From contig CAUJEF010000068.1 of assembly GCA_963169515.1 (NCBI GenBank), forward strand, positions 1 to 45,340: DNA of 45,340 bases, written 5' to 3'. Source of the DNA: Bdellovibrionota bacterium (GTDB taxonomy: Bacteria; Bdellovibrionota; Bdellovibrionia; Bdellovibrionales; JAEYZS01). The position numbers and the translations under genes are program-made. Below are positions 206 through 4,112 of this stretch, piece by piece. Every line of letters starts with the position of its first letter. The first letter of the stretch is position 1. Under the pieces are notes generated by a model. It saw nothing but the letters and a program-made list of their open reading frames with translations. It ran no database searches and was not told where the DNA came from.

Positions 206-2248
206 ATGAAACGTGATGAAAAAGTCAGATATCGAATTGAAGAGCTTCGGCGGGTAATACAACAACACGACTATAATTATTTCGTGTTGGATAAACCCAT
301 CATCCCAGATTTTGAATATGATCGTCTTTTCTCTGAACTTAGAGGTCTCGAACAAAAGCATCCCGACCTAGTTACTGCAACTTCTCCTACCCAGCGGGTT
401 GGCAGCATTGCGCTGAATAAATTCCCCAAAGTAAAGCATCGTATCCCTATGCTGTCTCTTCAAAACAGCTATTCTCCCGACGAAATTGTGGCCTTCCATG
501 AACGGGTATTAAAATTCTTAAAAAAGGAAGATGACTTCCAAATCGAATATTTTTGCGAACCCAAATTCGATGGTCTTGCGATTGAATTAATATATGAAGG
601 GGGTGTCCTCACTCACGCTGTTACACGCGGAGACGGCACAACCGGAGAAGACGTGTTTCCCAACGCAAAGACAATTAGAACAATTCCGCTCCGCCTATAT
701 GACGAAAGCCCGCCGCCCTTGATCGAAATCCGCGGCGAAATTTTAATGTTTAAAAAAGATTTTTTGGAATTAAACACCCAACAGCAAGAAAACGGCCAAG
801 AGCCTTTTGCAAACCCAAGAAACGCGGCGGCCGGCACCCTTCGCCAGCTTGATCCGCAAGTTGTCGCCAGCCGAAGCTTAAAGTTTTTTGCATACGCCAT
901 CGGGAAGGCAGAGGGCATTACATTTTTTCACCAAAGCGATCTGGCCCCCCATTTTCGGAGATGGGGAATCCCCGTTGTTGGGACGACAGACCTGGCTTTG
1001 CTTAGCTACAAAAAAGGGCTTTCTTGCGTTTGTAAGAGCGTCGACGAGGCGGTTTCTTTTTACAAACGGATTGAAGAGATCCGCCATGAACTGCCGTTTG
1101 AAATTGATGGCATCGTAACCAAAGTAAACAGCTTTGAGCTTCAAACCGCCCTTGATTTTATTGCGCGAAGCCCAAGATGGGCGACCGCCGCGAAGTTCAC
1201 CCCAAGCCGAGCGGAAACAAAAATTTTAAACATCGTTGTTCAGGTTGGTCGCACTGGCGCACTGACGCCCGTTGCAATCATGGAGCCTGTTGTCGTTGGC
1301 GGCGTAACAATTACGCACGCCACTCTTCACAACCAGAGTGAGATTGACCGAAAAGACGTTCGCATTGGTGACTCGGTTATTGTTCATCGGGCAGGCGACG
1401 TGATACCTGAAATTATAGAAGTCCTTTTGGACAAACGAGAAAAAAATGCATCTCCTTACAAAATTCCAAGCAAATGTCCTGTTTGCAAATCAGATGCTGT
1501 AAAGCTAACGGGCGAGGCCGTTTCCCGCTGTGTTAACCCGGCTTGTGAGGCCAAGCTCCGCGAGTCACTAAAACATTTCGCCTCTAAGCGCGCCATGAAT
1601 ATTGAATCCTTAGGCGACAAAATGATTGATCTCCTGGTTGATAAAAAACTAATTCACACCTATTCCGACATTTATCGAATCACCTTTGACGATTTAATCG
1701 CTCTAGATCGGCAGGGAAACACGTCTGCACAAAACCTGATCAATAGTATTGAAAAAAGCAAAAAATCTTCACTCAATAATTTTATCTATGCCCTCGGCAT
1801 TCGTTTCGTTGGCGAACAGACTGCAAAGTTGCTTGCTGATTATTTTGGCGACTTAGATAAAATTATGGTCGCCACCCCGGAAGACCTGTTGCGTGTCGAC
1901 GGCATCGGAGAAAAAATGGCCTTCTCTATATACGAAGCCTTTCAGCAAAAATCGTTTAGAGACGAAATCAAAAGTCTTTTGAAACACGGGATTGAGTTTG
2001 AAATCCGTACTAAAAAAGGACGCCGACTAAGCGAGGTCACCTTTGTAATTACCGGAACCTTGCCAAAGCCGCGCGAAGAAATTAAGACTCAAATTGAAAA
2101 CGAAGGGGGCCATGTTCTCGCCAGTGTATCTAAAAAGACGAACTATTTATTGGCTGGCGATGAAGCGGGCAGCAAAATAGAAAACGCCAAGAAGCTTGGC
2201 GTTCCTATTATTGATTGGAATAAATTTCAAAAAATGCTTGAGAAATAA
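206..2248 (+). CDS. ligA: NAD+-dependent DNA ligase LigA
   Basis: Seals nicks in duplex DNA using NAD+, for Okazaki fragment joining and repair. The 680-residue length is normal for LigA. In order: an N-terminal NMN-binding helical region; the adenylation domain with the KxDG motif in CEPKFDG, so Lys120 is the expected AMP-accepting lysine; an OB fold; a four-cysteine zinc module (CPVCKSD then CVNPACEAK, about residues 423-446); helix-hairpin-helix repeats (DGIGEKMA region); and a C-terminal BRCT domain (TFVITGTLPKPREEI onward). ATG at 206 is used although no strong Shine-Dalgarno is visible. It converges with the histone gene, stop to stop with a 3-base gap, and its last part contains a hairpin that may terminate the opposing transcript. 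Confidence 0.97.
   Translation: MKRDEKVRYRIEELRRVIQQHDYNYFVLDKPIIPDFEYDRLFSELRGLEQKHPDLVTATSPTQRVGSIALNKFPKVKHRIPMLSLQNSYSPDEIVAFHERVLKFLKKEDDFQIEYFCEPKFDGLAIELIYEGGVLTHAVTRGDGTTGEDVFPNAKTIRTIPLRLYDESPPPLIEIRGEILMFKKDFLELNTQQQENGQEPFANPRNAAAGTLRQLDPQVVASRSLKFFAYAIGKAEGITFFHQSDLAPHFRRWGIPVVGTTDLALLSYKKGLSCVCKSVDEAVSFYKRIEEIRHELPFEIDGIVTKVNSFELQTALDFIARSPRWATAAKFTPSRAETKILNIVVQVGRTGALTPVAIMEPVVVGGVTITHATLHNQSEIDRKDVRIGDSVIVHRAGDVIPEIIEVLLDKREKNASPYKIPSKCPVCKSDAVKLTGEAVSRCVNPACEAKLRESLKHFASKRAMNIESLGDKMIDLLVDKKLIHTYSDIYRITFDDLIALDRQGNTSAQNLINSIEKSKKSSLNNFIYALGIRFVGEQTAKLLADYFGDLDKIMVATPEDLLRVDGIGEKMAFSIYEAFQQKSFRDEIKSLLKHGIEFEIRTKKGRRLSEVTFVITGTLPKPREEIKTQIENEGGHVLASVSKKTNYLLAGDEAGSKIENAKKLGVPIIDWNKFQKMLEK
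2183..2203 (-). terminator. candidate intrinsic terminator for the histone gene, inside ligA
   Basis: Perfect 9-base inverted repeat (arms AACGCCAAG and CTTGGCGTT) with a 3-base loop. Read on the minus strand it is followed by a T-rich tract (TTTTCTATTTT); on the plus strand no T run follows. It lies about 50 bases past the histone stop, within the BRCT codons of ligA. The codons for the A-K-K-L-G stretch could create part of the palindrome by chance. Confidence 0.5.
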
Positions 2249-2251
2249 ATG

Positions 2252-2446
2252 CTACAGGTGGTCGATTTTAATATCACGAGCCATAACGGTTTTACGACCG
2301 TCTGCTTTTGCGCTTTCACAACCTCTTTCACATAGTTGCTCTACCGCTTTACTTAAAACTTGGACCGTTTCAGAAGAGGTATTAAATCCGCTTTTTTCTT
2401 TTATAAACTTCTTCACCTTGCTGGTAACAACTAATATATCTGCCAT
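2252..2446 (-). CDS. bacterial histone, HBb/Bd0055-like
   Basis: A 64-residue single histone fold with no tails: helix 1 about residues 6-19, loop 1 (FNTS), the long central helix about 25-49, loop 2 (GRKTVM) and a short third helix (ARDIKIDHL). The R-K-T-V then A-R-D-I pattern is the conserved loop 2 and Arg-Asp clamp region of histone folds. It resembles, from memory, HBb of Bdellovibrio bacteriovorus, published as an abundant DNA-binding dimer of the nucleoid. Start ATG has a strong GGAGGT Shine-Dalgarno four bases upstream. Two cysteines (39 and 43) lie in the central helix. The gene is downstream of a phosphoesterase gene on the same strand and convergent with ligA. DNA binding is inferred from the family. 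Confidence 0.92.
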   Translation of the reverse strand: MADILVVTSKVKKFIKEKSGFNTSSETVQVLSKAVEQLCERGCESAKADGRKTVMARDIKIDHL

Positions 2447-2461
2447 TCGACCTCCAAAAAG

Positions 2462-2479
2462 CTTGGGTTGGTTCCCAAG
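2462..2479 (-). promoter_or_regulatory. leader hairpin before the histone gene
   Basis: Inverted repeat CTTGGG / CCCAAG with a 6-base loop, 15 bases upstream of the histone ATG. On the minus strand the stem is followed by GCTTTTTGGAGGT, so a short T run overlaps the approach to the Shine-Dalgarno. It could end transcripts from the upstream phosphoesterase gene, attenuate histone transcription or protect the mRNA 5' end. The stem is only six pairs and the T run five, so this is tentative. Confidence 0.4.
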
Positions 2480-2591: not shown

Positions 2592-4112
2592 TTAGCCTGC
2601 TTGATTGGATGGATAGAGCTTTTTTCGTTCTTTTCGTGTGTAAAAAGGGCGTGCTTTATAAGTCTGTTTTGACGTCCCATTTGAAAACTCTCGAAGTTCT
2701 GCCTTTCGAGTGCCGTCTTCGCTTGGCGTTAACCAGATAAAAAGCTTTTTTGAAAATAGCTTTGTGCACTCTACGTCAAGAAAGGCCGGCGACCAGCTGC
2801 CGCTGTTCAAATGCTCAATTTCGCCTGCGATCTCATGCCTGGGTATATGAGTATGACCATAAACGATTCTTTTCACACGCGTGATTTTTGAAGAAATACT
2901 TAAAATCATTTCGTCAGGTTCTTTGTAGCGATGCACCTCAGATCGAATCGACTTTGAATAAAAGATGAAAAAGGGAACACATATCGCAAGCGGAATGAAC
3001 ATCCAAAAAAACGAAATACTAAACTGAAGCTTAATTAAGGTGAAAATCCAAAAAATAATTAAAAAAGAAAGCAATACTATAAAAGCACGATCAAGCCAGA
3101 GCTCCTGTGCCATCCGAAGCGGGTAGCTCGTCGCGGGGTGTGCCGCAAGCTCCTTGAGCTCTCGTACCATTCTCGGCGTCGCATTGGATTTATTCGCAAT
3201 CTCGTTGATTCGGTCTTCAATTGTTAGTGGATCTTTCAGGTCTGGAAGCAATCGATCTGTAAACGAATGAATAAGCGTCAAAAAAGAGCCCCAAAGCCAA
3301 GAAAACATAATAAGCGGTTCCGACTTCATCATGTACTTAACAAAAAAATTAATATATTCCTTGAAACTCATGATGTAGTTGGAATCCACATGGGGGTTAA
3401 AAAACCCCATTCCGTTAATCAAGTATCGGCAGGCTAAGTCGCCAAAAGGCAATCGCACCTCGATGCGATTAAATTTTTGAATCAATGGGTTAATCGGATT
3501 TTGACACAGACAATAAGGATCATATTGATTCCCATGTTCTATAAGAGTATCTCCGTTAGAGATATAAAACCACTCACAGAAACGAAGCCGGGCGTTTTCT
3601 TCGTCGGTCAAGCCCAGGGTCTTTCGAATTTCTTTTTGGACCCCTGGGTAATGTAGCTCTAGATCGTGATTCCCAATAACAACAACGACTCGATTCCCCT
3701 CTCTTACAAACTTCGTCAAAGACTTTACAAATAAGTCGTGATCTTTCAAAATCACCTTAATTTTAAAAACGGATTTTGCTTCTTCGGCAAATAGGCCTCT
3801 TTTTTTTTCTATCCAAGAAATGCTGTATGGCGCGTCCGGCGGCAAAGCCATAACGCTATCAAAGTCAAAAATGTCTCCATTTAGAACAAGCTCAACCATT
3901 TCCCCCTTTGCCTCTTTTTGTATATGATCTAGAAATCCGCTGAGCTGCTCATCAAAAAAAAACTGTCTTGTTTTATATTTCTTCCAAAGTGGTCGCTCTT
4001 TGTGTTCTGGTTCTGCTTCCGTAAGATGAATATCAGAAATCACAGCCGTAAATTTCGTCTTCGAAAAGTTTTTTAATACATCTTCTTCATTTTGGCTTGT
4101 GTGTGTCATCAT
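2592..4112 (-). CDS. calcineurin-like metallophosphoesterase with transmembrane hairpin
   Basis: 506 residues with the full dimetal phosphoesterase motif set: D27-x-H29 (ISDIHL), GDIFDFD (79-85), GNHD (147-150), an EHGN segment (His193) and GHTH (419-422), so it should bind two metal ions and hydrolyse a phosphate ester. About 200 residues separate the EHGN and GHTH motifs. This insert includes two hydrophobic helices near 343-360 and 366-387, which would anchor the enzyme in the inner membrane with catalytic motifs on both sides of the hairpin. LpxH-like and other phosphatases share the motifs but are much shorter, so the substrate is unknown. No strong Shine-Dalgarno is seen; two adjacent ATGs at 4107-4112 are possible starts. 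It is divergent from the transglycosylase gene and followed by the histone gene 145 bases on. Confidence 0.8.
   Translation of the reverse strand: MMTHTSQNEEDVLKNFSKTKFTAVISDIHLTEAEPEHKERPLWKKYKTRQFFFDEQLSGFLDHIQKEAKGEMVELVLNGDIFDFDSVMALPPDAPYSISWIEKKRGLFAEEAKSVFKIKVILKDHDLFVKSLTKFVREGNRVVVVIGNHDLELHYPGVQKEIRKTLGLTDEENARLRFCEWFYISNGDTLIEHGNQYDPYCLCQNPINPLIQKFNRIEVRLPFGDLACRYLINGMGFFNPHVDSNYIMSFKEYINFFVKYMMKSEPLIMFSWLWGSFLTLIHSFTDRLLPDLKDPLTIEDRINEIANKSNATPRMVRELKELAAHPATSYPLRMAQELWLDRAFIVLLSFLIIFWIFTLIKLQFSISFFWMFIPLAICVPFFIFYSKSIRSEVHRYKEPDEMILSISSKITRVKRIVYGHTHIPRHEIAGEIEHLNSGSWSPAFLDVECTKLFSKKLFIWLTPSEDGTRKAELREFSNGTSKQTYKARPFYTRKERKKLYPSNQAG

Follow-up and report, generated by a model that had tools for sequence, protein, structure and literature searches.

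We predict that the histone gene of this Bdellovibrionota bacterium ends its transcript inside the coding sequence of ligA, the gene that faces it. In the window (the whole analysed stretch of 45,340 nt), the hairpin at 2205..2181 on the minus strand is probably an intrinsic terminator of the histone mRNA embedded in ligA codons, one of a kind that seems to have evolved repeatedly in the order. Support for this prediction comes far more from the order as a whole than from the window by itself; comparison of the same gene pair in many genomes indicates that the embedded structure goes with the loss of intergenic space.

Genes and features of the window

The tail-less histone fold with an RKTVMARDI motif that the initial annotation had proposed was confirmed. 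The product contains the motif, matches PF00808 above cut-off in a profile search and, like HBb of B. bacteriovorus (Bd0055; PDB 8fvx and 8cmp), is tail-less and similar over its full length (64 aa, residues 1-64, E ~3e-27). From similarity to these structures, the histone dimer is predicted to bend DNA. The gene has the strong ribosome binding site ascribed to it, and GGAGG sites of a similar kind occur 5' of the histone start in many relatives. The ligA product contains the Pfam ligase, zinc-finger, HHH and BRCT domains. The stop-to-stop layout of the two genes also stands, with the ligA stop at 2246-2248 (+) and the histone stop at 2254..2252 (-), 3 nt apart. The coordinates of all features are given in Table 1.

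Table 1. Features of the histone-ligA region, in window coordinates.
Feature	Position	Strand	Basis or detail
ligA, NAD-dependent DNA ligase, 680 aa	206..2248	+	NCBIfam NF005932, 824 bits
T-rich tail CTATTTTGCT, after TT of stem end	2171..2180	-	ligA codons S-K-I-E
Intrinsic-terminator-like hairpin for the histone transcript	2205..2181	-	inside ligA codons E-N-A-K-K-L-G-V-P
3-nt spacer between convergent stop codons	2249..2251	.	read from sequence
HBb-type bacterial histone gene, 64 aa, tail-less histone fold	2446..2252	-	ORF, PF00808, PDB 8fvx/8cmp
Shine-Dalgarno (SD) GGAGG of the histone gene	2455..2451	-	4 nt before ATG, read from sequence
Leader hairpin, just upstream of SD	2479..2462	-	6 bp, 6-nt loop, -7.4 kcal/mol
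Metallophosphoesterase-type gene, upstream, same strand as histone	2592..4112	-	PF00149

A metallophosphoesterase-type gene adjoins the histone gene in many loci of several families (tblastn in relatives). The same metallophosphoesterase-histone-ligA neighborhood is found in the B. bacteriovorus kdesi locus (L063). Unlike in the window, the spacer of kdesi (taken as the G011 locus) is 65 nt long and contains an ordinary terminator.

The hairpin in ligA codons

The initial annotation had described a 9-pair minus-strand hairpin in ligA codons, followed by a T-rich tail. We identified this core dyad at 2203..2183 (9 pairs, -11.4 kcal/mol). The extended form at 2205..2181 (-14.9 kcal/mol) has 11 pairs counting G-T, of which 5 are G-C, and a loop of 3, and it lies 47-71 nt 3' of the histone stop. 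It is a stable, GC-rich hairpin of the type expected of an intrinsic terminator. The T tract of the window, TTCTATTTTG, is interrupted, and scores 3.0 with the core stem and 2.7 with the extended stem (our threshold for terminator tails was 2.6); tails at other loci with short gaps read TTTTCTA or TTTTTTC.

The fold of stretch 2254..2160 has a z of -2.06 and is equalled by 8 of 200 shuffles, and the terminator score over the 150 nt after the stop is reached by 1 of 50 dinucleotide shuffles. When ligA was recoded synonymously, the window terminator was matched over 180 nt by 19 of 100 recodings (148 of 1000 in a larger set), and, when codon usage was pooled, over 150 nt by 116 of 2000. At the exact site of the hairpin just 7 of 2000 recodings matched, an optimistic figure given that the site was picked after inspection. 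Taken on its own, the window is suggestive and its hairpin only moderately exceptional; the order-wide comparison carries the case.

Spacer length and predicted embedded terminators across the order

The histone search covered 140 genomes of the order and gave a match in 131. Eight of these (G044, G048, G077, G102, G104, G124, G126 and G128) were left out as their matches were only weak, second-type or broken, and 123 primary histone loci were used. A further 80 loci overlapping these genomes were kept out of the statistics. Within the fetched flank, ligA faces the histone gene in 111 of the 123 loci, and 110 of these have enough codons to be testable. The gap between the two genes is at most 25 nt in 29 loci (short gaps, including seven 4-nt stop overlaps and two longer overlaps) and at least 50 nt in 77 (long gaps, the longest of which contain further genes). 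Gaps of 26-49 nt (G063, G020, G071 and G040) fall in neither class. We counted a terminator as embedded if it scored at least 14 on the histone strand in the last 60 ligA codons, and as exceeding the synonymous null if its score was reached in no more than 1 of 100 recodings.

Terminators are common downstream of the histone gene in general: 97 of 123 loci score at least 14 on the histone strand in the 150 nt that follow its stop (shuffles expect 9.8), including 68 of 78 loci with gaps of at least 50 nt. In long-gap loci a textbook terminator typically sits in the spacer, and little excess structure is seen within ligA. The proposal that the terminator was built into ligA coding sequence gained support from the embedded class, with 22 of 29 short-gap loci vs 5 of 77 long-gap loci reaching 14 (Fisher 3e-12), a comparison for which the gap classes and the cut of 14 were fixed after the terminator scores had been seen and the scoring formula was written before. 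By genus, an embedded terminator is present in 13 of 18 with short gaps vs 4 of 36 with long gaps. The synonymous null is exceeded in 17 of 29 short-gap vs 5 of 77 long-gap loci, and with 1000 recodings 17 of the 29 again stand at no more than 10 per 1000. Genus medians for the excess over this null are 8.4 (short-gap) vs 0.4 (long-gap; p 1e-6), and 8 of the 18 short-gap genera have at least one such locus at 1/100 or less.

These counts bear on the alternative that the window hairpin is a coincidence of ligA codons, with histone transcripts ending by Rho, by polymerase collision or diffusely in ligA. This alternative draws on the 180-nt recodings above and on several short-gap loci that lack a convincing terminator; seven score below 14 inside ligA codons (G002, G059, G068, G074, G075, G127 and G133), with the terminator of G127 spanning the ligA stop. 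A Rickettsia study (PMC3027695) also describes convergent pairs as often without site-specific ends. Against it stand the low count of site-specific recodings in the window, the presence of such structure in most short-gap loci, and the two other members of the window's family, which have room (gaps of 1387 and 538 nt) and an ordinary terminator beginning 25-29 nt after the histone stop. We consider coincidence unlikely, and an embedded terminator the better reading of the hairpin.

Other convergent pairs and the opposite strands

Control stretches were taken from G033 (400 kb), G052 (280 kb) and G000 (335 kb), and contained 81 convergent pairs with a gap of at most 25 nt. At the 1/100 level, 8 of 158 sides of these other tight pairs exceed recoding, a count that leaves out the histone pairs of G033 and G052 and never included that of the window, vs 17 of 29 for histone transcripts running into ligA. 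These counts lend no support to a generic habit of every tight convergent pair as the explanation. Tight tail-to-tail packing as such is usual in the G000, G033 and G052 stretches, where ~63% (81/128) of convergent pairs have gaps of at most 25 nt.

We also examined the reciprocal side. The initial annotation had envisaged a coupling between the ends of the histone and ligase transcripts, which found no support on the ligase side: a ligA-strand terminator inside the histone coding sequence exceeds recoding (at most 1/100) in just 1 of 29 short-gap loci, so ending of the ligA transcript within the histone gene is rejected for these loci.

Antisense terminator-like hairpins in the histone coding sequence exceed recoding in 8 of 77 long-gap loci (e.g., G029, G043, G047, G069 and G082). 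They mostly occupy one site, with a T tract from K-E-K codons, and might keep antisense transcription out of the histone gene.

On the ligA sense strand, structure beyond recoding occurs in 12 of the 29 short-gap loci, mostly via the same hairpins, some of which are then followed by TTTTAAAA. This leaves some room for a role of the hairpin in the ligA mRNA (3'-end protection), or for a two-way terminator common to both genes. The distance from the sense structures to the end of the ligA stop is 17-23 nt or more, and a transcript ending at them would lose its stop codon. They are nearly absent at gaps of at least 50 nt (1 of 77), and the ligA sense strand of the window has a terminator score of 0, with no U tract after the hairpin. 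A ligA or two-way role is distinctly improbable, and we retain the reading of the hairpin as a terminator of the histone transcript.

Probable repeated origin and the sites used

Short-gap loci are spread over 18 genera, and the LigA tree (FastTree only) implies at least 21 changes of the short state. Of 12 independent pairs on supported branches, ~7 have the terminator with the short gap and 0 show the opposite (median p 0.016, range 0.008-0.07). The embedded terminators use at least two sites in ligA. Site A, which includes that of the window, lies 16-72 nt into ligA and takes its T tract from conserved codons of the K-L-E-K-A type. Site B lies ~115-155 nt into ligA, where N-G-G-K-x-L-S-S-V codons form the stem and E-K-N codons supply the T tract. 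GGKxLSSV is written GGA GGA/GGT ... TCC TCC in 4 of 5 site-B loci. Among 40 LigA tails with GG[KR]xxSS[VA], TCC TCC serines are found only in those four loci and in G113.

A natural experiment comes from two close sisters, G056 with a gap of 15 and G053 with a gap of 67: their LigA peptides are nearly identical, and the stem is intact only where the spacer leaves no room, the codons of G053 breaking it. Covariation in a six-sequence genus set is slight, with one pair changed on both sides; pair counting is weak here because 6 of the 9 pairs never vary.

Proposed mechanism and known systems

Histone termination antisense within ligA is well supported by the comparison, and we propose the following route for it. 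The facing genes leave no intergenic room for a histone terminator, and ligA codons carry the hairpin and the T-rich tract. The histone polymerase would run ~50-80 nt antisense into ligA, where it has no ribosome behind it; the hairpin could for this reason form, and the polymerase would be let go on the U-rich tract. The ligA polymerase would read through, there being no U tract after the hairpin on the window sense strand, and the ribosome trailing it perhaps keeps the hairpin open (a ribosome gate). An abundant transcript may be selected for clean ends, which would hold the synonymous ligA codons in place. The histone-specific excess over other tight pairs fits such a need. PMC10627809 reports HBb (Bd0055) as the most abundant nucleoid-fraction protein in B. 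bacteriovorus, an organism other than that of the window.

More tentatively, and with doubt outweighing confidence, we suggest a broader version: an abundant chromatin protein may repeatedly dictate the synonymous codons of an essential neighbour. A one-way terminator would be rebuilt in ligA after each loss of the spacer, using one of several motifs that permit it (the K-L-E-K-A T tract or the BRCT N-G-G-K-x-L-S-S). Translation of ligA would serve as a gate, open to ligA polymerases and closed to those coming from the histone gene.

That a terminator can lie within an opposing gene is known in general. Both components here, the HBb-type histone and the predicted intrinsic terminator, belong to familiar types. 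What is new is comparative evidence for a terminator that appears to be maintained within the coding sequence of an essential gene facing it, with more than one origin upon spacer closure. Our literature search found no report of a histone terminator inside ligA, and a search for Bdellovibrio with Term-seq gave a match only on a Bacillus subtilis response. A Zymomonas 3'-end study (PMC7566282, citing E. coli) describes intrinsic terminators between convergent genes, often two-way. As in those systems, a hairpin and U tract would end a transcript that faces another gene; unlike them, the histone hairpin and tract lie inside the codons of the facing gene and exceed synonymous recoding in many relatives. 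The short spacer also makes the histone 3' UTR antisense to ligA, which resembles the overlapping 3' UTRs and excludon-type antisense ends covered in a review (PMC7821165). Those overlaps arise from missing terminators or read-through, whereas the predicted histone terminator would limit the overlap to ~80 nt.

If the prediction is correct, an unrelated neighbour partly determines, through the demands of its own transcription, which codons an essential DNA-repair gene uses, and this solution was reached more than once. The 29 short-gap and 77 long-gap loci are natural replicates of one gene pair, and serve the study of how terminators move into coding sequence as spacers close. The pair also offers a clean test of whether ribosomes decide on which strand a hairpin terminates, and adds to the scant knowledge of bacterial histone gene expression.

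The histone leader and a second histone gene

The hairpin with a short T run that the initial annotation placed 5' of the histone gene is present (Table 1), and is followed by five T, CTTTTTGG, and then the SD. Its regulatory role fared poorly. A leader that attenuates or autoregulates the histone mRNA, in the manner of ribosomal-protein leaders, would accord with this arrangement and with a local fold better than 59 of 60 shuffles. The tail score is 2.24, under the terminator threshold, and only 7 of 121 leaders among orthologues pass at 3 or fewer of 60 shuffles, about the number expected by chance. Leaders are on average less structured than their shuffles (mean shuffle fraction 0.62 in 121 leaders). 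In the window's family, the hairpin is almost lacking in G069 (-1.2 kcal/mol), and a different hairpin is present in G070. An Rfam search of the window gave no family at gathering score. We reject a conserved regulator on the basis of the leader counts and hold an attenuator to be highly improbable; the leader hairpin is apparently private to this genome.

Other elements were seen upstream of the histone gene in relatives. A AATATATTCGA-like stretch, absent from the window, occurs some tens of bases 5' of the histone start in both family members (G069 and G070) and in G090, and may be an operator or promoter element. In 35 of 121 loci, TATG[CT]AA is found ~34-51 nt 5' of the start codon, often with TTGTCA upstream; together they look like a histone promoter in Bdellovibrio-type genera.

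The genome of the window encodes a second histone-fold gene (G000:C107:14292-14465, locus L002), with 47% identity over residues 3-60. The fold sits in a longer open frame of 154 codons, and second histone copies of this kind are present in many relatives.
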